Source of the DNA: SAR202 cluster bacterium bin87
Lineage (GTDB): Bacteria > Chloroflexota > Dehalococcoidia > Lucifugimonadales > UBA3495
Reading direction: 5' to 3'
DNA: 64,000 bases
NCBI GenBank assembly: GCA_002238825.1
Contig: MPNC01000003.1
Coordinates: forward strand, 124,001 to 188,000
Shown here: in pieces, positions 6,466 through 35,750 of the stretch
Layout of the letters: every line of letters starts with the position of its first letter
How positions within the stretch are numbered: position 1 is the first letter of the stretch
Notes under the pieces: model-generated
The model's database searches: none
What the model was told of the DNA's origin: nothing
Seen by the model: the letters and a program-made list of their open reading frames with translations, nothing else
Program-made: the position numbers and the translations under genes

Positions 6466-8418
6466 ATGACTCAGAATACCGGCGCTTTTGAGGCCCTGCT
6501 GCAGGAAGACCGGACGTATCCGCCCCCGGCCGAGTTCGTCGCCAACGCCAACATGTCCGACCCGGGGGTGTACGAAGAGGCTGCTCGGGACCCGGAGGCC
6601 TTCTGGGCGCGGTTCGCCGGCGAGCTGGACTGGTTCGAGCCCTGGCACACGGTGCTGGACTGGTCGGACGCGCCCTTCGCCAAGTGGTTCGTGGGGGGCA
6701 AGCTGAACGCCGCGTACAACTGCATCGACCGTCACCTCGACGGACCGCGCAAGAATAAGGCGGCCATCATCTGGGAGGGCGAGCCGGGAGACTGGCAGGT
6801 CTACACCTACCGCGATCTGTACCGCGAGGTGTGCAAGTTCGCCAACGGTTTGAAGAGCCTCGGCGTCAAGAAGGGCGACCGGGTCACGCTGTACATGCCT
6901 ATGGTGCCGGAGCTGGCCATCGCCATGCTGGCGTGCGCCCGCATCGGCGCGCCCCACAGCATCGTTTTCGGCGGGTTCAGCGCGGAGTCGCTGCGCGACC
7001 GCATCGAGGACTCCCAGTCCAAGGTGATGATCACGGCCGATGGGGGCTGGCGACGCGGCAGCATCATTCCGCTGAAGCAGAATGCCGACGCGTCCATCGA
7101 GGGCGACACGCCGGTGCAGAATGTGGTGGTGGTGAAACGCACCGCCCACGACGTGCCCATGGTGGAGGGTCGGGATGTCTGGTGGCACGACCTGGTCGCC
7201 GACCAGCCCCTGACCTGCGAGCCGGAGCAGATGGACAGCGAGGACATGCTGTTCATGCTGTATACCAGCGGCACCACCGGCAAGCCCAAGGGCATCGTCC
7301 ACACCACCGGCGGCTACATGACCGGCACCTACGCCACCAGCAAGTGGATCTTCGACCTCAAGGAAGATGACGTGTACTGGTGTACCGCCGACATCGGTTG
7401 GGTGACCGGCCACAGCTACATCATCTACGGGCCGCTGGCCAACGGCGCGACCACGGTGATGTACGAGGGCTCGCCGGATTATCCCGACCGGGACCGGTTC
7501 TGGGCCATCGTCGAGAAGTACGCCTGCACCATTTGCTACACGGCGCCCACGGCGATCCGGACCTTCATGCGATGGGGCGAGGAGTATCCCGAGCGGCACG
7601 ACATGTCGTCGCTGCGACTACTGGGTTCCGTTGGTGAGCCCATCAACCCGGAGGCGTGGGTTTGGTACTGGCAGCACATCGGCGGCGGCCGCTGCCCGGT
7701 GGTGGACACCTGGTGGCAGACCGAAACCGGTGCGGTGATGATTTCGGCCCTGCCGGGCATCACTACCCTGAAGCCCGGTTCGGCCACGCAGCCCTTCCCC
7801 GGCATCGACGCGGCCATCCTGGACGAGCAGGGCAACGAGATTGGCCCGGGCGGCGGCGGCTACCTGGTGGTCCGCAAGCCGTGGCCCAGCATGCTGCGCG
7901 GGATCTACGGCGACCCCGAGCGATTCGTGCAGCAGTACTGGTCCAATTACGAGGGCACTTACTTCACCAGCGACGGCGCGAAGCTGGACGAGGAATCCTA
8001 CTTCTGGCTGCTGGGTCGTGTCGACGACGTGATCAACGTGTCGGCGCACCGGATCAGCACCATGGAGGTGGAATCGGCGCTGGTGGATAACCTGAAGGTT
8101 GCCGAGGCGGCGTGCATCGGCCGCAGCCACGAGGTGAAAGGGCAGGCCATCGTCGCCTTCGTCACCCTCAAGGACCAGGTGGCCGGCTCCGACGACGTGA
8201 TCACCGAGCTGAAGCAGCACGTGGCCGGCAAGATCGGCCCCATGGCTCGTCCGGACGACATCTACTTCGCCGCCGAGCTTCCCAAGACCCGCAGCGGCAA
8301 GATCATGCGTCGCCTCCTCCGCGACGTGGCCGAAGGCCGGGCTCTTGGCGACACCACCACGCTGGCCGACCCTGCGGTGGTGGAGATGCTCAAGGAGCAG
8401 TACGGGGACGAGGACTAG
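6466..8418 (+). CDS. acs: Acetyl-CoA synthetase (AMP-forming)
   Basis: 650 aa, the usual length for acetyl-CoA synthetase, converting acetate, ATP and CoA to acetyl-CoA, AMP and PPi through acetyl-AMP. The N-terminal ACAS_N region is followed by the adenylation core with the P-loop [11 protein letters not shown] starting at about residue 266, [24 protein letters not shown] (A5-type motif) and [15 protein letters not shown]. The C-terminal domain carries [10 protein letters not shown] with Lys612, the position that in characterised Acs enzymes is acetylated by Pat-type enzymes to switch activity off. The ATG has GGAGG with about nine bases spacing. It stands alone and ends at a strong intrinsic terminator. 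Confidence 0.96.
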
Positions 8419-8454
8419 CGCGGTCCACTGTCCTCACAACACGAAGCGCTGAAC

Positions 8455-8484
8455 AAGGCCTTCTCCACAACGGAGAAGGCCTTT
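8455..8484 (+). terminator. Intrinsic terminator after acs
   Basis: A perfect 12-bp stem: arms 8455-8466 and 8472-8483 with a five-base loop, running into TTTATC. It lies 37 bases after the acs stop codon and before the HEPN/TPR gene. Confidence 0.85.
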
Positions 8485-8626
8485 ATCAATGCGCGAAAAT
8501 CGCGCTGGCTTTACGCGACGGGCTTCCGTTTCTTCATGCTATGTTGACCCGGAAGAATGCAGCTCAAGCATTTCTGTAGAAGTTGATCTTGCGCTCACCT
8601 TTTGGCGGTAATTTGGACGGAATTTC

Positions 8627-9634
8627 ATGACTGCGCCTGCGCCCTACAACAACCACAGCCTGGTCGGTGAGGCCCTGCGACTGCTGGCCGCCGGACTGGG
8701 TCCCTACGTATCCGGCAAGATGCAAGAGGCCGTGGACGCTGGACGCTACGCGCCCGACGACTCGGAAGCCCTCGGCGAGATTGCCGGGGATATCTCGGTG
8801 ACCCTGCGCGTGATGGCCATGGCCTGGAACGACGTTTTCCGCGATGCCCTGGGCCCTGCCGAGCGCAGCCTGGTGTCCGAGATCCGCGAAACCCGCAACC
8901 GTTGGGCGCACCAGGACACCTTCGACGACGATGACCTGGACCGCGCGCTGGACTCCATTGGCCGGCTGCTGGCTGCCGTCGGCGCCATCAACGAAGCCAA
9001 GCGCATCGACGGCGCCAAGCACCGCCTCCGCCTCAGGCGCTACGGAACGGCGTCGTCCAGGGCTGCCGCGCCGGATGATGCCGCGCCAGACCCCCAGGCC
9101 GAGCCGGACCCTGCGGCCGAAATGCAGCCGATGGATCCGCCCGGAGAAGCCGAGCTGCCTCCGGCCGCCGATCTGGACGACCGGCCCGCGGATGCGATTG
9201 CCGCCCCTGACTCCGCGCGCGAACACCTGATACAGGAATACATCCACAAAGGCGTGGAATACCGGCGTAACGAGCACTTCGGCCATGCCATGGGGGAATT
9301 TGAGCAGGCGATTCGCATCGACCCTGACCGGGCCGACACCTGGTTCCATCGGGGTATGACCTGGGGACTGATGGGCGACCACGGACGGGCCATCGCCGAT
9401 TTCAACCGCGCTATCGCCATCAGCCCGCTGTATGCCGAAGCCTACAACTGTCGGGGGTACGCCCATTTTTGTCGGGGCGATTATCGGCTGGCAGTGGATG
9501 ACCTGGAACGAGCTGACCGTTTGAACCCCGGCGACGAATTGATCCAGGGCAACCTGCAGCAGGCCCGGATGCGCTTCCTGCAGCAGCCGGGCAACCCCGA
9601 TCCGACGAGATACGGGGCCGGTCCAGCCCCGTAA
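8627..9634 (+). CDS. Swt1-type HEPN domain protein with C-terminal TPR repeats
   Basis: 335 aa. The first ~130 residues read as a Swt1-like HEPN domain: NHSLVGEALRLLAAGLGPYV at the N-terminus and RETRNRWAHQ, which contains an R-x4-H pair, the ribonuclease-type signature of HEPN domains. A proline/alanine-rich, acidic linker (about residues 140-200) leads to two or three TPR units (VEYRRNEHFGHAMGEFEQAI, then DRADTWFHRGMTWGLMGDHG and YAEAYNCRGYAHFCRGDY). HEPN domains are found in RNases of defence and toxin systems; the TPRs suggest docking to a partner. No partner gene is adjacent. Function not assigned. Confidence 0.75.
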   Translation: MTAPAPYNNHSLVGEALRLLAAGLGPYVSGKMQEAVDAGRYAPDDSEALGEIAGDISVTLRVMAMAWNDVFRDALGPAERSLVSEIRETRNRWAHQDTFDDDDLDRALDSIGRLLAAVGAINEAKRIDGAKHRLRLRRYGTASSRAAAPDDAAPDPQAEPDPAAEMQPMDPPGEAELPPAADLDDRPADAIAAPDSAREHLIQEYIHKGVEYRRNEHFGHAMGEFEQAIRIDPDRADTWFHRGMTWGLMGDHGRAIADFNRAIAISPLYAEAYNCRGYAHFCRGDYRLAVDDLERADRLNPGDELIQGNLQQARMRFLQQPGNPDPTRYGAGPAP

Positions 9635-16490: not shown

Positions 16491-17231
16491 TCAAGAAGGA
16501 CGCTGGGTCTCGCTCTCCTCGTCCGGCGGGAGCACGTCGAGCAGGATCGCCTCTTCGCTGAGGCGGGCGGCCTCTCCGAGGATTTCGGGCCGATCCTCGA
16601 TGAGCAGATCTGGATCTATTGCCGCAGATTTTTCGGGTCGGTGGTCGGAGTTGGTCAGGATGTTGTGGGTGACCACCACCATGGCCAGGGCGGTCAAGCC
16701 AAACATGACAGCCCAATCATGTCCACGCAGCGTGTTGAGGGCCAGCATGGCTCCGAACCCCAGGAATATACCTATGGACGACCGGAACGCCGAGCGGCGG
16801 AACAGCAGCACGGTGACGATCCCGACGGCGATACCCACCAGGATGTACCAATTGAGGTAGGCCAGCGAAACGCCCACCAGGACGACCATGCCATCGCCAC
16901 CTCTGAACCCCGTGAATATGCTCTTCCAGTGACCCGCAATCGCGGCCGCCCCCGCGACAATAGCGGCCAGCTCGGGTACACCCAGCATCCAGGCGACCGC
17001 CACGGCCACGGCGCCCTTGATGACGTCGCAGGCGAATACCAGCATGCCGCGTCGCCGTCCCACGTGCCAGAAAACGTTGGCGGTGCCGGCGCGCCGGCTG
17101 CCGGTGGCGAAAATATCCACGCCCTTGAGGCGCGCCACCAGGTAGGCGAAGGGGATGCTGCCCAGGAGATAACCGACCAGCGCCGCCGCGAGCACGCGGG
17201 GGATCAGGGGCAGAAGATCGTCAAAAAACAT
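16491..17231 (-). CDS. plsY: PlsY-like glycerol-3-phosphate acyltransferase with altered motifs
   Basis: 246 aa. Five or so transmembrane helices with the PlsY framework: YLLGSIPFAYLVARLKGVD, the DVIKG segment, AIAGHWKSIFTGFRGGDGM. PlsY transfers acyl from acyl-phosphate to glycerol 3-phosphate to make lysophosphatidate. Two family motifs are changed: GSGNxGAxN is GSRRAGTANV and FxGGKGVAT is FRGGDGMVV, so the phosphate-binding loop has Asp where the Lys normally sits. It is a clear family member, but standard activity is uncertain and it may be a paralogue with another substrate. The C-terminal ~45 residues are an acidic, non-family tail. ATG 17231 is used; a TTG one codon earlier is possible. 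Confidence 0.75.
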   Translation of the reverse strand: MFFDDLLPLIPRVLAAALVGYLLGSIPFAYLVARLKGVDIFATGSRRAGTANVFWHVGRRRGMLVFACDVIKGAVAVAVAWMLGVPELAAIVAGAAAIAGHWKSIFTGFRGGDGMVVLVGVSLAYLNWYILVGIAVGIVTVLLFRRSAFRSSIGIFLGFGAMLALNTLRGHDWAVMFGLTALAMVVVTHNILTNSDHRPEKSAAIDPDLLIEDRPEILGEAARLSEEAILLDVLPPDEESETQRPS

Positions 17232-17290
17232 CAAAAAGCGAAATCAGATGGTCGGCCGGGCGAGAATGATACCACAGCGGGTTGCAATCA

Positions 17291-18079
17291 TTACGGATTG
17301 CGGCCCACGTACAACCAGTAACCGATCTGTCCGCGAGACACCGATTGCTCCACGCGCTCCAGCAAGCCGGGGGCGGATTCCGCCAGATCGGCGGTCAGTT
17401 CCGATGGGGAGAAGCCAACGGCTCCGCCCAGGGCGAGCTTGCCGCGCAGGTCGGCCAGCAGCGTCATCACCTCGCCGGAAAGGTCTTCCGGTCCACCAAC
17501 CACAAAGCCGGCACGCTCCAGGAGATTCTGGTATCCGTCGGCGGGCAGGGCGTCGGTGAGGCAGAGCATCATGCCCACGGTTCCGTCCAGTTCGGGCGGC
17601 AGGCTGCCGGGCTCGACCGTGACATCGGAGATTCCGACCACGCCACCGGGCCGGAGCAGACCACGCACGCGGGAGATGGCGGATTCCTTGTCCACGAACA
17701 GGCTGGTGGCGCACTCGATGATCACGGCGTCAAAAGCGCCCTCGCGGAATGGGGGCATTTCGGCGTCGCCCCGGACGAATGCAACGTCAGCGGGCACCGG
17801 CTGTTCCTGTGCGCGCCGGCGGGAGGCAACCGACGCCTCCGCTCCCAGTTCCAGGCCCACCACGTGGCAGCGGAACACCCGGGAGATGGCCGTGGCGCTG
17901 GTTCCCAGGCCGCACGCAAGGTCCAGCACGCGCCAGCCGGCCTGCAGGCCCATGGCGCGGCCCAGCCGGTTGGTGGCGCGCAGCCCGCCGGGATGCAGGC
18001 TGTCGCCCAGGATCAGGCGCGCCAGTTCCGATGAGTAGAGGTCCGCGCAGCATATCTTGGCCGCGTAGGTGTCGAGCAT
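17291..18079 (-). CDS. Class I SAM-dependent methyltransferase
   Basis: 262 aa. Rossmann-fold methyltransferase motif I is VLDLACGLGTSATAI (about residues 50-64), followed by GLELGAEA, the acidic VRGDAEMPPF and FDAVIIECATSLFVDK. The C-terminal half has the RGLLRPGGVVGISDV post-motif typical of Methyltransf_11/UbiE-like enzymes. The N-terminal AAKICCADLYSSELARLILG with two adjacent cysteines is unusual. It starts 12 bp after the radical-SAM gene, so the two form one operon and probably act on the same product. Substrate unknown; lipid or thiol/metalloid methylation are possibilities only. Confidence 0.82.
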   Translation of the reverse strand: MLDTYAAKICCADLYSSELARLILGDSLHPGGLRATNRLGRAMGLQAGWRVLDLACGLGTSATAISRVFRCHVVGLELGAEASVASRRRAQEQPVPADVAFVRGDAEMPPFREGAFDAVIIECATSLFVDKESAISRVRGLLRPGGVVGISDVTVEPGSLPPELDGTVGMMLCLTDALPADGYQNLLERAGFVVGGPEDLSGEVMTLLADLRGKLALGGAVGFSPSELTADLAESAPGLLERVEQSVSRGQIGYWLYVGRNP

Positions 18080-18091
18080 CGACCGCGACCC

Positions 18092-19552
18092 TTACGCCTG
18101 TTCTTCCCGGTCACGCGAGACGGCAAGGATCTTCTGCCGGCCCTGTTCCATGGTCAGTTGCTCCCGGATCTGCTCACGGTATCCCACGGAGTTGTAGGAG
18201 CAGAAGGGGATGGCCCGGCCGTCCGGCGTCAGGATGCCGACGCAGCACTTCATCACCTGCTTGACGTTGAAGGTCCAGGCGTCCAGGAAGTCCTTGATGG
18301 CGATCTGGAAGACATGCTCCTTGAGATGGTTGACCTCGTAGGGCAGGTCCAGGCCGGGTCCGCAAGCGCACTCAAACTGCCCGGCGGTCTGCTCGGTGCC
18401 AGCCACGGCGGAGGCCGACCACAGGCCCTCCAGCGCGGTCTGGATATCGGCGGCGTTGGGTGGCTTGGGCAACGCGCGGTTGGTGATGTAGTCCAGGTAC
18501 TGGTCGATGTCCAATATTCTGGGCAATGGCGTGACGGTGTCGCCGTCCACGAACAGGTAGGAATTGACCTGGCAGGTGGGGAAGCAGCAGGGGACGGGAA
18601 CGAAATCTTCCAGGATGAAACGGCCGTCGGTCTGGTCGACGATGCCGTGGATGATGTCGGGGATGGTGACCCTGGTCATGGGATCGAACTCGATGTGCCG
18701 GCCCACATGGGTGACGGGCTGGAAGACGACGCCGCGCACCGCCGGATGCTTCAGGCCGAACTCGACGATGCTGCCCACCTCGTCGGTGTTCACGTCCCGC
18801 TCGATGGCGGCCACCAGCACGGCGGTCATGCCAACCTCTGCCAACCGGTCCAGCGCGCGCATCTTGGTATCCAGCAGGGGTTCGCCGCGGATGGTCAGGT
18901 AGGTCTCCTCGCGGAGGCCGTCGAACTGGAAGTAGACCACCGGGTCCAGGGCCTGCATCTGCGCCAGGAAGCGGTCGTCGCGGGCCAGGCGCACGCCGTT
19001 GGTGTTGATCATCACCTGCCGGATGCCGCGGTCCTTGGCGGCCTGGATCATCTCGGGAAGCTGCGGGTGTATGGTGGGCTCACCGCCGCTGAACTGGACC
19101 ACCTCGGGGTCGCCCTCGATCTCCACCAGGCGGTCAAGCATGAACTCGACCTGCTCCAGGGTGAGGTTGTATCCGGCGCCGGCGTTGGCGAAGCACACCG
19201 GGCAGTCGAGGTTGCAGGCGGTGTTGACCTCGATGAGGGCCAGGCAGATGTGCTGCTTGTGCTCGGGGCAGAGGCCGCAGTCCAGCGGGCAACCGTCCTT
19301 GACCTCGGTGCTGAAGTCCAGGGGGATGGTGCCGGGTTTGTTGAACCGGATGCTCCCGACGTACATCTCGGCGTCGGAGCTGATGATGCCCTCGAACCAG
19401 CCGTGCTCGGGGCACCGTTTCCGCATGTAGACCTTGTTATCGCGGATGATTACCTGGGCGTCGATGACGGTTTTGCACTCGGGGCAGATGGATCGGGTGA
19501 GTTCGTGAAAGATATAGTCGGCGTCCTGCTTTATGCGGTTATTGGTTGTCAA
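18092..19552 (-). CDS. Radical SAM protein of the COG1964 / tetraether-synthase-like group
   Basis: 486 aa from a TTG start with GGAG nine bases upstream; no ATG fits the conserved N-terminus. Cysteines are arranged as in archaeal COG1964 proteins: C23-x2-C26 with C47 (rubredoxin-like), C88-x3-C92-x2-C95 (likely auxiliary Fe-S cluster) and the radical-SAM C113-x3-C117-x2-C120 in TACNLDCPVCFA. VQFSGGEPTIHPQL is the SAM-binding GGE motif. More conserved Cys occur near the C-terminus (FVPVPCCFPTC, FECACGPGLD, VMKCCVGI). Known members include the tetraether lipid synthase (Tes), which couples acyl chains, but other functions exist. Operon with the methyltransferase downstream. Confidence 0.82.
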   Translation of the reverse strand: MTTNNRIKQDADYIFHELTRSICPECKTVIDAQVIIRDNKVYMRKRCPEHGWFEGIISSDAEMYVGSIRFNKPGTIPLDFSTEVKDGCPLDCGLCPEHKQHICLALIEVNTACNLDCPVCFANAGAGYNLTLEQVEFMLDRLVEIEGDPEVVQFSGGEPTIHPQLPEMIQAAKDRGIRQVMINTNGVRLARDDRFLAQMQALDPVVYFQFDGLREETYLTIRGEPLLDTKMRALDRLAEVGMTAVLVAAIERDVNTDEVGSIVEFGLKHPAVRGVVFQPVTHVGRHIEFDPMTRVTIPDIIHGIVDQTDGRFILEDFVPVPCCFPTCQVNSYLFVDGDTVTPLPRILDIDQYLDYITNRALPKPPNAADIQTALEGLWSASAVAGTEQTAGQFECACGPGLDLPYEVNHLKEHVFQIAIKDFLDAWTFNVKQVMKCCVGILTPDGRAIPFCSYNSVGYREQIREQLTMEQGRQKILAVSRDREEQA

Positions 19553-19583: not shown

Positions 19584-20456
19584 TTATGCGGTCAGTTCGT
19601 TGCCGTTGCTGATCTCAACGTACGTGGTATCCCAAAGTGCCACCATCACGGCGCCGGTATTGGGGTCTGTGCGCAACCGTGTACCGGCTACCACTGGCAA
19701 CGCAATTCCGGTTTCTTCCGGTGGTCCGTCATGGCCTAGGATGGTTTCCAGGGTCTCCGCCTGCGCCGATGCACGCTTCACATCACCACGCTTGACTTCA
19801 AAGGATGCTTGAACAATCAAATAAACCGGCATGTCATCTTCGGCCCGGCGACCGTAGAAATAGACGTCACCGGAGTGGAGATCGTTGGCCGAGCTGCCGG
19901 AGACGATGCCGCGCTGGGCGGCGCCAATCGCCATTGTGAACATTTTCTCCCGTGGGAAGAGCTCGATACTGCTCAATTTCAGCGCATTAGCAAAATCACC
20001 GGGACGGCGTTCGCAGAGGAATTCCATTCCCCAGCCTTTCAAGGTGGAAACGTCATTTGAAGTGTAGTCATGCTCGGCACTCAGTTCTGAGACTCTGCCT
20101 CTCGTTTCCCGGTGAGATTCCATTAGTCGCTCGAACCTGCGGTCCATGCGTTCCTGTGACGTGCGCAGCTCTTCGAGTCCTCTTGAATTCTCCGATTGCA
20201 AAGCGCGGATCTCCGCCATCTCCCGGTCGTGCTGAGCGGCACGCTCCCGTTGCTCCGCGCGCATCTCGACGGCAGATTCCCGGATCTCCGCCATCTCCCG
20301 GTCATGCCGGGCGTCGCGCTCCACATTGGCGGCACGCATTTCGGCGATAGCGCGGGCGTTTTCACTCGCCAGTTGCGCAGTTTGCTCCAGTAACGCCCGC
20401 AATTGGGCAACGGTCATGGGCTGAGGATCGTTGGCGGGAAAATGATCTGTGGCCAT
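19584..20456 (-). CDS. Coiled-coil protein with a PD-(D/E)XK-like C-terminal domain
   Basis: 290 aa. Residues ~15-125 form a long coiled coil with repeated blocks (DREMAEIRESAVEMRAEQRE, DREMAEIRALQSE). The C-terminal half has FLCERRPGDFANALKLSS, SGDVYFYGRRAEDDMPVYLI, VQASFEVKRGDVKRASAQAETL and a terminal beta strand. This layout matches a widespread group of coiled-coil/restriction-endonuclease-fold proteins in Cyanobacteria and Chloroflexota. The usual catalytic ExK-type strand here reads VQAS, with Gln where a Glu is expected, so nuclease activity is doubtful. It lies between the radical-SAM gene and an orphan DNA methyltransferase on the same strand. Function unknown. Confidence 0.6.
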   Translation of the reverse strand: MATDHFPANDPQPMTVAQLRALLEQTAQLASENARAIAEMRAANVERDARHDREMAEIRESAVEMRAEQRERAAQHDREMAEIRALQSENSRGLEELRTSQERMDRRFERLMESHRETRGRVSELSAEHDYTSNDVSTLKGWGMEFLCERRPGDFANALKLSSIELFPREKMFTMAIGAAQRGIVSGSSANDLHSGDVYFYGRRAEDDMPVYLIVQASFEVKRGDVKRASAQAETLETILGHDGPPEETGIALPVVAGTRLRTDPNTGAVMVALWDTTYVEISNGNELTA

Positions 20457-21428: not shown

Positions 21429-21464
21429 AAAAGAGGATGCGCGTGAGGATACCAGGTGAGATCA

Positions 21465-22694
21465 ATGACCCAGAACGATGGAACTCCGAACAATCATCCC
21501 GCTGGCCCGCTGGTCGGCGTCAAGGTGCTGGACCTGACGCAGATCATGGCCGGCCCCATGTGCACCATGCTGCTGGCCGACATGGGCGCCGACGTCATTA
21601 AGGTCGAGCGCCCCGGCACCGGCGACGACACGCGGCGCATGGGGTCGCGCCTGACCCACGACATCGCTGGCGGTTTCCTCGCGCTGAACCGCAACAAGCG
21701 CAGCATCGCGCTGGACCTGCGCTCGGACGAGGGCAAGGCGGTGTTCCGGCGCATGGCGGAAACGGCGGACATCGTGGCGGAGAACTTCCGGCCCGGCGTA
21801 ATGGACCGCCTGGGCCTGGGGTACGAGGCGCTGGCGGAGATCAACCCCCGGCTGGTGTACGCCAGCATATCCGGCTTCGGCGGCACGGGGCCGTATCGCA
21901 ACCGCGGCGGGTTCGACCTGGTAGCCCAGGGGATGAGCGGGCTGATGTCGATCACCGGCTTCCCGGGCGGGCCTCCGGCCAAGGTGGGCGTGCCCATCAC
22001 TGACATCGGCGCGGGCAGCTTTACCGCCTTCGGCATCCTGGCGGCGTATATCCACGCCCAGCGCACGGGACAGGGTCAGCAGGTGGACGGGTCGCTGTTG
22101 GAGGCCGGCATCGCCTTCACGGTCTGGGAGTCGTCGGAGTACTTCGCCAACGGGGAGATCCCCGGCCCACTGGGCTCCGCCCACCGGGTCAACGCGCCGT
22201 ACCAGGCCCTGCGCACCAGTGACGGTTACATCAACATCGGCGCGGCGTCGCAGCCGACGTGGGAGCAGTTCTGCTGCGCCATCGGGCAGGATGCCCTGAT
22301 CGAGGACGAGCGTTACCTGGAGCCCAACGACCGCAAGGCCCGCGAGGCAGAATTGGCCGAACTTCTGGAGGGCATCCTCGCCGAGCACACCACGGCCCAC
22401 TGGATGGAACTCCTGGAAGCCGCCGGCGTGGTGGCCGGCCCCATCTACGACATGGAGCAGGTGTACAGCGACGAGCAGGTCCTCGCCCGCGACATGAAAG
22501 TCACGCTGGACGACCCGGAACTGGGCCAACTGAACCACATCGGGGTTCCCGTGAAGCTATCGGAGACGCCAGGAAGCATCCGGCACCGCGGACCGGCGCT
22601 GGGCCAGCACAGCCGCGAGATACTGGCCGAGCACGGGTACAGTGAGGCGGAGATAGACGCGCTGGTCGAGGGCAAGACCGTCGGAGCGGTGTAG
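21465..22694 (+). CDS. CaiB/BaiF family III CoA transferase (1)
   Basis: 409 aa. Family III signature at the N-terminus: VLDLTQIMAGPMCTMLLADMGADVIKVERP, then LNRNKRSIALDLRS and ADIVAENFRPGVMDRLGLGYE; the Asp in VGVPITDIGAG is at the position of the family's catalytic aspartate, followed by GQGQQVDGSLLEAGI. These enzymes move CoA between carboxylic acids via an aspartyl-CoA intermediate; examples act on formate/oxalate, carnitine or bile acids, and the substrate cannot be read here. ATG 21465 is preferred over the GTG at 21456, which is part of its AGGTGAG ribosome-binding site. Single gene; the intrinsic terminator 150 bp downstream may end its transcript. Confidence 0.92.
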   Translation: MTQNDGTPNNHPAGPLVGVKVLDLTQIMAGPMCTMLLADMGADVIKVERPGTGDDTRRMGSRLTHDIAGGFLALNRNKRSIALDLRSDEGKAVFRRMAETADIVAENFRPGVMDRLGLGYEALAEINPRLVYASISGFGGTGPYRNRGGFDLVAQGMSGLMSITGFPGGPPAKVGVPITDIGAGSFTAFGILAAYIHAQRTGQGQQVDGSLLEAGIAFTVWESSEYFANGEIPGPLGSAHRVNAPYQALRTSDGYINIGAASQPTWEQFCCAIGQDALIEDERYLEPNDRKAREAELAELLEGILAEHTTAHWMELLEAAGVVAGPIYDMEQVYSDEQVLARDMKVTLDDPELGQLNHIGVPVKLSETPGSIRHRGPALGQHSREILAEHGYSEAEIDALVEGKTVGAV

Positions 22695-23137: not shown

Positions 23138-25540
23138 ATGGACAGGCGACAAATGCGTGCGGGATACCGAATCCTAGGGTTGGCGGTGCTCATGCTGGCC
23201 CTCGCCGCTGCGGCAATGATTCCCGGCAACCCCAACGTCCCGCCAATTGCGGCGGACCACGACGACCGACCCAGTCCCAAGGTCTACGTAGATTGTCCAC
23301 AGACCCATGTGGAAGAGGGCAATTCACTGAAGGTTTACCTGGTGCGCACGGACGTGAACGGTCACGAGGAGGACAATTTCGGAGGGTGGTGGCATACCCA
23401 TTGGTACACCGCCAACGGATCAGATTACCCTCGCCTCGACGGGGTCTGGCAGGCCAGCACCGAGGCCGAGCGCCGCGCCAATCGTATGGAACGAACCATC
23501 CGGACCTACGAAGACGACCGCCTGGAAGGTGAAGAATCTTTCGTCGTTAGGTTCTCCCCGCCCAGCATTGTGAAAGATCTGGATGATCCGCAGCGGGACG
23601 ACCGGTGCGATATCACGATCGTGGACGACGAAGCGCGCGTGACCAGCATCGACATAATCTCGCGACCTGCCGCAGGGGACACCTACGGTCGGAAGGAGAC
23701 CATCGAATTCGCGGTCACCTTCAATCGCGAGGTCGAGGTGGGAGGCCGGCTGATCATGGGGATCTGGGTCAACCCTGGATGGCGGGCCGCCGGTTACCAG
23801 AGAGGGTCCGGCACGGATACCCTGGTGTTCGGATACACCGTCAAGGATCGAGACCGAGACGGCAATGGCGTCAGCGTCCCTAACGGCTACCACGACGGAA
23901 AACGATGGCACGGGTTCGGGCTCTCCAGCGTGATCAAGGTCAAAGACACGGATATCGGGGTCAGCGGCATATACCGTGGCATCGGAAACCAGTCGGGTCA
24001 CCGGGCGGACGGTTCAATTCGCCGGGGCGCCGTCGGCGTGCGGATTGTCTCAACGCCGGCCAACGGCGTCGCTTATGACGCTGGCGAGGACATCGAGATC
24101 GAAATCCGGTACCAGGAGGCGGTAAGAGTGACCGGCCGGAAGGGGATTGCCATCCGGGTCGGCGACTACGGGTCGGGACGGTCAACCTACCGCGCGGCAA
24201 GGTACGTGCGGGGCTCCGGCACCGACAGGATCGTCTACGCCTACACTGTGCAGGCCGGCGAACAGGACGACACGGGCATCAGTGTCGATCGCGGCAGCAG
24301 GAGCTCGGGGTATACGCGCGACGGCAGGCTCAATGTTCAGTCCTCCGGCGCCGCGGTCTCCGTCTACTACCCGGCCCTCGACGCTGACCCGGATCACAAG
24401 GTGTACGCCAGGGACAGAATCGCTCCCACTGTCTCCTCCGTTGCCCTGACCTCCGATCCCGGCGACGATGACACCTACACCGTCGGGGAAAGTGTTGAAG
24501 CAACGGTTACCTTCAGTGAGAACGTGCAGGTGACCGGTTCGCCGGAGATCGAGTTGGATGTCGGTGGTGCGGCGAAACATGCCGCGTACCGCCGGGTGGA
24601 CGGTTCGGCGGCGGTTTTCACCTACACCATTGCGGAAGGCGACGCCGACACCGACGGCATCTCCATCGGCGCGAACAAGATCATGCAAAACGGCGGAACC
24701 ATCGCCGACCTGTCCGGAAACCCGGCGACCCTGACCCACAACGCGGTGGCGGCCGACACGGGCCACCTAGTGGATGGGATAAGTCCGCAATTCGTGAGCG
24801 CGATCACGGTTACCATTGCCGGCAGCCCGGGTATACCGCCTTTCGTGCCGCCCACGCCGGAGCAACCAGGAGTAAGGGTAACGCTGAGCGAAGCCACGGA
24901 TCCCCTGCGCTTTGTTGATTGGCTTTCTGAACACCACGCCGTAGAAATACAGCACTTTTTTGAAGACATCCTGGACGTGACCGTGGATGGGGCTCCGGCC
25001 AAAGCCACCGGACTGAGCACTACGGGGAACACCTTGACCATTCCCCTGCAGCACGAGATAACAGCCGGCCAGGATGTGAGGGTGAGTTACGACAACAACT
25101 TCGCCAGGGATTCCCACGGCGCCTACGCGGACAGCGACGGAAACCCGCTCGTGCTTTTCTCTAACCAACCCGTGAACAACGTGTCAACAGCGACTGAAAC
25201 GACCGCGGACAACGACGCGGATGGCATCATATTCAGCGTCGCCGAGGTGAACATGGCCGAGGGCGCCACCGCGACTTACTCCGTGTCACTGGCGACGCAA
25301 CCCGCTTCCGACGTCACCGTTTCGCTCAGCATCGACCCACCCGGAGGCCGGGTTTCCGCAAACGTCGCAAGCCTGACCTTCACTTCAGACAATTGGAGCA
25401 CAACTCAGGACGTGAGGCTGACCGCATCCGAAGACACCGTATCCAGCAAATACTGGGCGATGGTCAACCACGCGGCGACGGGAGGCGGGTACGACGGCGA
25501 AACCGGCAGCGTGCGGGTGGTGGTCGAAGACAACGACTAG
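23138..25540 (+). CDS. Exported surface protein with SwmB-like and Calx-beta-like repeats
   Basis: 800 aa. The signal peptide is basic then hydrophobic (GLAVLMLALAAAAMIPG) with cleavage likely around residue 30-45. A first Calx-beta-like domain ends FVVRFSPPSIV...CDITIVDDEA. Three related units follow, each with a 'VTFxxxVxVxGxPxIxLxVG...AAYxxGSGxxxLxFxYTVxxGDxDxDGIxI' pattern: VTFNREVEVGG, IRYQEAVRVTG and VTFSENVQVTG. An SwmB-type unit (PPFVPPTPEQ...SYDNNF) and a final Calx-beta-like unit (MAEGATATYSVSLATQPASD) complete it. It ends abruptly at DND with no visible anchor or sorting domain. Such proteins are putative adhesins or surface-layer components. Confidence 0.8.
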   Translation: MDRRQMRAGYRILGLAVLMLALAAAAMIPGNPNVPPIAADHDDRPSPKVYVDCPQTHVEEGNSLKVYLVRTDVNGHEEDNFGGWWHTHWYTANGSDYPRLDGVWQASTEAERRANRMERTIRTYEDDRLEGEESFVVRFSPPSIVKDLDDPQRDDRCDITIVDDEARVTSIDIISRPAAGDTYGRKETIEFAVTFNREVEVGGRLIMGIWVNPGWRAAGYQRGSGTDTLVFGYTVKDRDRDGNGVSVPNGYHDGKRWHGFGLSSVIKVKDTDIGVSGIYRGIGNQSGHRADGSIRRGAVGVRIVSTPANGVAYDAGEDIEIEIRYQEAVRVTGRKGIAIRVGDYGSGRSTYRAARYVRGSGTDRIVYAYTVQAGEQDDTGISVDRGSRSSGYTRDGRLNVQSSGAAVSVYYPALDADPDHKVYARDRIAPTVSSVALTSDPGDDDTYTVGESVEATVTFSENVQVTGSPEIELDVGGAAKHAAYRRVDGSAAVFTYTIAEGDADTDGISIGANKIMQNGGTIADLSGNPATLTHNAVAADTGHLVDGISPQFVSAITVTIAGSPGIPPFVPPTPEQPGVRVTLSEATDPLRFVDWLSEHHAVEIQHFFEDILDVTVDGAPAKATGLSTTGNTLTIPLQHEITAGQDVRVSYDNNFARDSHGAYADSDGNPLVLFSNQPVNNVSTATETTADNDADGIIFSVAEVNMAEGATATYSVSLATQPASDVTVSLSIDPPGGRVSANVASLTFTSDNWSTTQDVRLTASEDTVSSKYWAMVNHAATGGGYDGETGSVRVVVEDND

Positions 25541-34202: not shown

Positions 34203-35621
34203 TCATGCGGTCGTTCCCGGTTCCGGACGCATCACCGGGCACCCGGCGCACATCGCGCCCCGGCTGCCGGGGACGCAGGCGTGATCCGGTGCGTAAGGCG
34301 CCGGCGTCTCCATCACGGAGGCCAGGGCCGGCGACCTCGGCGGCGGCAGGTTGACGCCGTCGGCCTCAGCGGCGCGCCTATCAATAGCCTCGCCGAACAG
34401 GTCCAGGCGCAACTGTCGGCCCGACGGCGGACGCTGCCCGGGGAACACCACGTAAGGCCAGGCGCGCTTGCGGACCACTCCCATGGCCCGCAGATCGCGC
34501 CAGGTGTCGATGCTGTGCTGGCGGCGGTTTTTCAGTATCCGCTCGGCGGACACCGGCCCGATGCCGGGGATGCGCAGCAGTTGATCCCGGGATGCCGCGT
34601 TGAGATCAATGGGAAAGGCGTCCAGGTTCTCCATGGCGATGACTGTCTTGGGGTCCTGTTCCAGCGAAAGGAACCCGGAGTGGTCGAAGGCCAGGCCGAT
34701 CTCGTCGCTGGAGAACCGGTAGACGCGCCGCAGCCAGTCCATCTGGTAGAGGCGGTGCTCGCGCCCGGCGTGGACGGGCGGCTTCTCCTCCATGGGCGTG
34801 TGGGTCGCCGGACGGAAGGGTGGGTAGTACACCCGCTTCAGGTTCCAGTCGGTGTACATCTGGTCAACGCGGCGGTAGATCTGCCGGTCCGACTCGTCGG
34901 CCGCGCCCACGACGAACTGGGTGGCCTGGCCGACGGCGCCGCCGCTGGTGGACGCGGTGAGGTCGTTGATCCAGGCCATGGGGTCGAGGATGTCGCGTTG
35001 CAGGTCTTTGTGCGGGCTGATGCGGCGCATCATGTCGGGTTCGGGCGTCTCGATGTTCACCGACAGCCGGCTGCCCAGCCGGTGGGCGCGTTCGACCAAC
35101 TCGCGGCTGGCGCCGGGCATCACTTTCAAGTGAATGTAGCCACGGAAGCCGTGCTTCTTGCGGATGATCTCGACCGTCTCCACCATGCGCTGGGTGGTCT
35201 TGGTCCCGTCGCCGGCGATGCCGGAACTCAGGAACAAGCCGTCTACAGCAAAGCGGTTGTGCAGCTCCATGAAGGTGTCCGCCAGCTCCTCGCGCTTGAA
35301 GGCGTAGCGTTTGCGGGGCACGTAGATGCTGTTGGGACAGTACGCGCAGTCCATCTTGCAGAAGTCGGTGAACATCACCCGCAGCAGGCTGATCTTCTTG
35401 CCGTTGGGCAGGCTGGACTTGTAGATGCCCGGCGTGGGGTTCTTGCGCGGGTCGGAGTAGGCGACGCGGTTGGGGCCGCTGGTGGCGTAGCCGCTGGCGA
35501 ACTTGCCGGAACCGGCGTCTTCAGAACGTGCCGCTCCTCCGGTCAGGATGTCGTCGGCGGCCACCATGCCGCCCAGGGTGCGCAGCTTGTCGTATCGGTC
35601 GGGCGAGGACTTGATGAGCAT
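34203..35621 (-). CDS. Putative DNA modification/repair radical SAM protein
   Basis: 472 aa from ATG 35621, with AGGAG ten bases upstream. The radical-SAM cluster motif is FCKMDCAYCPN (C-x3-C-x2-C), followed by FLSSGIAGDG in place of the GGE motif, HLKVMPGAS and RLSVNIETP. The C-terminal section PIDLNAASRDQLLRIPGIGPVSAERIL is a helix-hairpin-helix, a non-specific DNA-binding element. This combination matches the TIGR03916-type family, which elsewhere is usually paired with a TIGR03915/DUF4130 protein; no such partner is adjacent here. The chemistry is unknown; DNA lesion or base modification is the usual guess. The tail after the HhH carries extra Cys residues (DHACVPG, AMCAGCP). Confidence 0.85.
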   Translation of the reverse strand: MLIKSSPDRYDKLRTLGGMVAADDILTGGAARSEDAGSGKFASGYATSGPNRVAYSDPRKNPTPGIYKSSLPNGKKISLLRVMFTDFCKMDCAYCPNSIYVPRKRYAFKREELADTFMELHNRFAVDGLFLSSGIAGDGTKTTQRMVETVEIIRKKHGFRGYIHLKVMPGASRELVERAHRLGSRLSVNIETPEPDMMRRISPHKDLQRDILDPMAWINDLTASTSGGAVGQATQFVVGAADESDRQIYRRVDQMYTDWNLKRVYYPPFRPATHTPMEEKPPVHAGREHRLYQMDWLRRVYRFSSDEIGLAFDHSGFLSLEQDPKTVIAMENLDAFPIDLNAASRDQLLRIPGIGPVSAERILKNRRQHSIDTWRDLRAMGVVRKRAWPYVVFPGQRPPSGRQLRLDLFGEAIDRRAAEADGVNLPPPRSPALASVMETPAPYAPDHACVPGSRGAMCAGCPVMRPEPGTTA

Positions 35622-35750
35622 GGTCAGGCATCTCCTGTGAGGCCATGGCATCAGTTGCCCGGCAATATGGCGAACCGATGTTCTCACGCGAACGTGCAAT
35701 TGGTCAACAGGTGGATGTCATTCATGCACGCCCGTTTTGTAGCGAGGAAC

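Follow-up and report, generated by a model that had tools for sequence, protein, structure and literature searches.

Does a bacterial radical-SAM enzyme that resembles the archaeal tetraether synthase (Tes) and is encoded beside a methyltransferase act on membrane lipids, or do the two enzymes perform a different chemistry? This question is raised by a locus in the window analyzed here, i.e., the whole stretch of 64,000 nt from one contig of SAR202 cluster bacterium bin87. Two open reading frames on the minus strand span exactly positions 17291–19552. The first encodes a COG1964 radical-SAM protein with a Tes-like fold (rSAM; 18092..19552, 486 aa, TTG start), which matches Pfam families PF04055 and PF23545; the second, following after a gap of 12 bp, encodes a class-I SAM methyltransferase of DVU_1556-like/ArsM-like type (17291..18079, 262 aa). 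Thus, the operon that a previous, sequence-only reading of this DNA had proposed was found as described.

The dN/dS values against five relatives were 0.05–0.10 for rSAM and 0.10–0.21 for the methyltransferase, and the two genes were located side by side, in unchanged order, in 20 of 20 relatives examined. Together, these observations argue that the pair is real and not a chance arrangement. rSAM was present in all 13 genomes of the same genus and in about half of the family. Both genes occurred in the same 25 of 60 related genomes and were jointly absent from the others. Within the rSAM clade (91 loci), the methyltransferase gene lies directly downstream in 78 cases (74 were recognized by their motif; the others are L099, L118, L132 and L139, which is frameshifted), whereas 10 loci possess an Lgt-like gene instead (prolipoprotein diacylglyceryl transferase family; two examined genes scored below the cut-off) and three end with the contig. 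This pairing spans several phyla. The presumed functional coupling of rSAM to the methyltransferase, its dedicated partner, is therefore supported. Two misleading cases were discarded: a fusion of both proteins in Streptomyces sp. AV19 (L139, 925 aa) is created by a frameshift before the last Cys, and the “methyltransferase” of L098 is an alternative-frame ORF at a locus with an Lgt-like gene. A search of viral contigs yielded no relative.

A further coupling, to a PlsY-like gene, proved weak. The respective ORF (16491..17234, minus strand, 247 aa) begins 56 bp downstream of the methyltransferase gene and encodes a membrane protein that matches PF02660 with 104.6 bits (cut-off 24.1), but TIGR00023 with only 93.7 bits (cut-off 137.2). 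In two relatives (L036 and L037) PlsY is 4–5 kb distant, at three of the 20 relative loci (L034, L035 and L040) it was not found, and the genome contains five PlsY-family genes. Therefore, we regard PlsY as a neighbor rather than a partner; it probably lies outside the module. On the other side, directly upstream of rSAM, a coiled-coil-rich ORF (19584–20456, minus strand) is 36–67% identical or undetected in relatives of the same genus, unlike its own neighbors, which are conserved. A CoA-transferase gene (21456–22694, plus strand; CaiB-like by eye) is oriented divergently from the rSAM side, and its position is kept in 19 of 20 relatives. An ORF of 800 aa with beta-rich repeated segments (23138–25540, plus strand) by eye resembles a surface or adhesion protein. 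The window also contains a second radical-SAM ORF (34203–35699, minus strand; PF04055 match, genome C49:158962-159375) without close kinship to the rSAM studied here.

How similar is rSAM to Tes? The AlphaFold2 model (pLDDT 91.6, pTM 0.91) matched the Tes structure 7tom with Z 54.7 (rmsd 3.2, 443 residues aligned), whereas the next, unrelated radical-SAM protein reached Z 20.9. Foldseek aligned the model to Tes with E 3e-47 and 32% identity, and Tes of M. jannaschii is the closest solved structure to rSAM (E 7e-89). Pterin methylation (HMPTM), from which the name of PF23545 derives, was rejected, because Lloyd et al. moved MJ0619 to Tes; they also described the FeS-cluster and rubredoxin-site ligands of this enzyme. 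The ligand Cys and His residues of the RS, N and C clusters and of the rubredoxin site are all found in rSAM and are kept in 44–49 of 49 clade rows. They comprise, all on the minus strand, a rubredoxin-type Fe site (C23x2C26x20C47x2H50; 19403..19486), spaced as C9x2C12x20C33x2H36 in Tes, the N-terminal auxiliary [4Fe-4S] motif (C88x3C92x2C95x2H98; 19259..19291), the radical-SAM motif (C113x3C117x2C120; 19193..19216) and, predicted from the alignment to Tes, the ligands of the C-terminal auxiliary cluster, C327 (18572..18574), C436 (18245–18247) and C451 (18200–18202). The three Cys groups reported from the letters alone are present, and so are the further Cys close to the C terminus (C323, C327, C395, C397, C436, C437 and C451).

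Despite this fold and cluster arrangement, the assignment of rSAM to the Tes group itself was not sustained. Among curated families, TrsS (NF045646) gave the best score with 366.7 bits (cut-off 490), followed by Tes (NF045702) with 350.3 bits (cut-off 450). In a careful tree of 33 rows, rooted at the midpoint, rSAM falls, with strong support (ultrafast bootstrap 99, SH-aLRT 97), into a group that also includes sequences from SAR202-type Chloroflexota, Ktedonobacteria, Acidobacteria, Actinobacteria (Streptomyces, Mycobacterium) and others. Constraining rSAM to the Tes rows of this tree lowered lnL by 86 and was rejected (p-AU 3.8e-12); a quick tree of 78 rows agrees in placing rSAM outside Tes. 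This is strictly not a placement in a clade with a known non-lipid function, as the clade around rSAM has no known function. Two Tes residues are replaced as well: Met439, a labile cluster ligand, corresponds to K420 (18293..18295, minus strand), with Q, K, R, H or T but never Met in the clade, and Tyr459 corresponds to I440. Both were reported to occur in every one of 1000 archaeal Tes homologues, but the Tes variants M439A and Y459F/L stay active; their absence thus marks a different lineage and leaves a different reaction unproven.

The strongest argument against a tetraether function of the pair comes from genomes that possess both systems. One Ca. Nitrosotalea genome encodes a true Tes (690 bits, over the cut-off) and the rSAM–methyltransferase pair at separate loci, and two Acidobacteria genomes likewise carry the pair apart from a Tes-like gene of 700 aa. 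In view of the rejected grouping, the scores below the cut-off, the lack of Met439 and Tyr459 and the coexistence with a true Tes in Nitrosotalea, rSAM and similar “bacterial Tes homologues” probably perform a separate chemistry and do not make tetraether lipids. Other bacterial sequences, L052/L089 (from the class of the bin87 genome) and L172 and L174 (Acidobacteria), cluster with Tes and have retained both Met439 and Tyr459. They are better candidates than rSAM for making bacterial membrane-spanning lipids.

The methyltransferase provides further hints. Its best family is DVU_1556 (NF045667; 122.5 bits, below the cut-off of 155), followed by arsenite methyltransferase (ArsM, NF008823; 62 bits, cut-off 263). 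The N terminus, MLDTYAAKICCADLY, contains the CC that had been noticed as unusual (C10–C11; 18047..18052, minus strand); it is found in 30 of 31 homologues and aligns with ArsM Cys44. Two more residues, C123 (17711..17713, minus strand) and C173 (17561..17563, minus strand), are present without exception in all 31 homologues and coincide in the alignment with the central and the second As(III) Cys of ArsM, respectively. MitM and RebM, related methyltransferases that do not act on arsenic, lack such Cys. Three ArsM Cys positions are thereby aligned (N-terminal, C123 and C173), while an equivalent of ArsM Cys72 is absent; ArsM residue numbers other than Cys44 presumably follow CmArsM. Most ArsM need four Cys (PMC8552651). 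In the fold comparison, AtmM, phosphoethanolamine methyltransferases and mycolate cyclopropane synthases were tied (Z 25–27), and ArsM was not among the best 50 structural rows, which we did not count as evidence against ArsM likeness. These Cys suggest a metalloid or thiol, and not a lipid tail, as the target.

We therefore favor, though tentatively and with less than even confidence, a dedicated two-enzyme module acting on a soft centre of a putative substrate, to which rSAM would add carbon and which the methyltransferase would methylate. The two would work successively on a single substrate, whose centre would be soft and thiophilic; trivalent arsenic (or another metalloid) is the most likely candidate, and a thiol comes second. 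rSAM would join a carbon group to this centre via a 5′-deoxyadenosyl radical, perhaps with a substrate carbon bound, as in Tes, to its C-terminal FeS cluster. The methyltransferase would grip the centre between its conserved Cys and methylate it with a second SAM. By analogy, this sequence of steps may follow the logic of ArsS/ArsM (arsenosugars) and ArsL/ArsM (arsinothricin) with a different radical-SAM family. The reading builds on the conserved pairing, on the position of rSAM outside Tes, on the invariance of C123 and C173 and their alignment with ArsM Cys, on arsenite methyltransferase being one of the closest curated families, on Methanococcoides, in which the gene of a related rSAM shares 4 bp with a true arsM (356.9 bits, cut-off 263), and on the precedent that C–As bond formation by radical-SAM enzymes together with ArsM is established for arsenosugar and arsinothricin (PMC12159101, PMC8552651). 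Against it stand the missing Cys72 equivalent, the missed ArsM cut-off and a fold comparison that does not single out ArsM. Furthermore, a better ArsM is encoded elsewhere in the genome (264 bits, cut-off 263) and no ars genes stand out in the neighborhood: among the 25 commonest Pfam families in 123 neighboring ORFs none is arsenic-specific, and recurrent members are disulfide-type flavoproteins, some of them MerA-like. Finally, the Lgt-like gene replacing the methyltransferase in 10 clade loci fits a lipid context better.

Metal-related genes were observed near the pair in L104, L076, L119, L125 and L129; they encode MerA-like flavoproteins, a heavy-metal P-type ATPase (L129) and a small CCVGP-containing membrane protein. 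A mercury context was dismissed, as of the MerA-like proteins tested only L104:15085-16749 (minus strand), about 6 kb from the pair, exceeded the MerA cut-off.

The Lgt-like partners lead to the alternative that comes closest to the original proposal, a bacterial lipid enzyme in which rSAM, like Tes, would couple or alkylate the ends of fatty-acyl chains and its partner would methylate the lipid chain or head group. This would agree with the Tes-like fold and cluster Cys of rSAM, with a methyltransferase fold that is also that of mycolate cyclopropane synthases, and with the PlsY-like gene adjoining the pair in the genus of bin87. In a distant sister branch, an Lgt-like (diacylglyceryl transferase) gene is linked to rSAM in 20 of 25 loci; the hosts are Planctomycetes, Paenibacillus, Bacteroidota, Melainabacteria and Ktedonosporobacter. 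Such a COG1964 rSAM beside an Lgt-like gene forms a second conserved module (e.g., L127:6699-7469 with rSAM at 7986-9494; also L154 and L167), which exists in Anaerolineae and mycobacteria, too, and a plasmid of M. branderi (L204:4331-7524) shows a similar arrangement. As the Lgt-like partner belongs to a lipid enzyme family, lipid modification is still conceivable. We nevertheless regard it as unlikely, considering that the rSAM clade falls outside Tes and that carriers of Tes keep the pair at a separate locus, that Met439 and Tyr459 are missing, that the PlsY linkage is inconsistent and that the methyltransferase Cys are left unexplained.

Similarly doubtful is a TrsS-type pathway, e.g., for the modification of a cofactor or peptide, that is metalloid-free and in which the methyltransferase Cys would be structural or redox-active. 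The best curated matches of our pair, TrsS and the DVU_1556 methyltransferase, do adjoin in the true TrsS locus (L088). By eye, this locus also contains genes for a C-GCAxxG-C-C protein, a redox protein and a CoA-ligase-like protein, but the C-GCAxxG-C-C, small redox-protein and CoA-ligase-like genes were not found around the studied rSAM or at the loci of its relatives. In addition, TrsS falls nearer to Tes in the 33-row tree than the rSAM clade does.

Still less probable is an insertion of sulfur with subsequent capping, in which rSAM would transfer sulfide of its C-terminal cluster into an unreactive C–H bond and the methyltransferase, or the Lgt-like protein in the sister branch, would alkylate the resulting thiol: a sulfur-containing lipid accumulates with Tes under limiting SAM, thiol alkylation is plausible for either partner, the rSAM clade keeps the three C-cluster Cys and genes of thiol–disulfide exchange (CcdA, redoxin, glutaredoxin, disulfide reductases) recur near the pair, but about half of the Lgt-linked branch has lost some of these C-terminal cluster Cys and the thiol product is only putative.

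Returning to the soft-centre reading, a far-reaching version of it would be that the Tes fold serves a second, widespread purpose: together with an ArsM-like partner it would link a metalloid to carbon in an unreactive alkyl chain, as an arsenolipid-type synthase. The tetraether synthases would then be younger than this pairing or descend from it. We consider this very improbable. In the 33-row tree, loci with the rSAM/methyltransferase pairing fall on either side of the midpoint root.

Bacterial “Tes homologues” are counted as possible makers of the branched tetraethers (brGDGTs) on which temperature proxies are based. A Black Sea study counted such homologues in 111 Chloroflexota and 110 Planctomycetota genomes (PMC11868695), and 20 Halobacteria genomes with Tes homologues but without GDGTs were flagged elsewhere (PMC8941075). 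The Chloroflexota, Planctomycetota and haloarchaeal relatives that we read fell outside the Tes group, and nearly all had either an ArsM-like methyltransferase or an Lgt-like protein as their partner, which suggests that published counts may overstate the number of tetraether producers. The haloarchaeal homologues had been left unexplained (PMC8941075). At four haloarchaeal plasmid loci (L202, L203, L206 and L207), the rSAM is 30–32% identical to ours and is followed by a methyltransferase gene that overlaps it or begins at most 5 bp away; the two methyltransferase sequences read kept the HPGG motif and both Cys. Genes encoding redoxin, DUF547, dihydrolipoyl-dehydrogenase-like and DUF3179 proteins are located nearby. 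The TrsS and DVU_1556 families are already named yet uncharacterized, and the pair represents an unnamed sister lineage of TrsS/DVU_1556 that scores below every curated cut-off. Since Streptomyces and haloarchaea are among its carriers, the pair is also well suited to testing whether the Tes scaffold supports a new chemistry.

Among known systems, Tes/GDGT-MAS (MJ0619, 7tol/7tom) shares with rSAM the fold over the whole length, the radical-SAM core, the auxiliary cluster Cys and the rubredoxin-type site. In contrast to Tes, to which it is about one third identical, rSAM has a methyltransferase partner and the extra conserved Cys C103, C395 and C397, which are common to TrsS, the Nitrosotalea and Methanococcoides relatives and the Lgt-linked branch. 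TrsS resembles rSAM as its best curated family, in these additional Cys and in its DVU_1556-type methyltransferase neighbor, but rSAM is only 33–34% identical to the one true TrsS found and belongs to a different branch. The DVU_1556 methyltransferase has the HPGG/RPGG motif and two ArsM-type Cys in common with ours, whereas the N-terminal CC is missing from the methyltransferase of the TrsS locus. Compared with ArsM, our methyltransferase is below the cut-off and lacks both the Cys72 equivalent and an ars operon, but it shares with ArsM (NF008823, 4fr0, 5evj) the two As-site Cys in equivalent motifs, an N-terminal Cys and the overall domain. Relative to the organoarsenic pairs ArsS/ArsM and ArsL/ArsM, the module described here employs an rSAM of a different family with extra auxiliary clusters, while its operon logic is alike: a radical-SAM enzyme encoded together with a methyltransferase carrying a Cys site.
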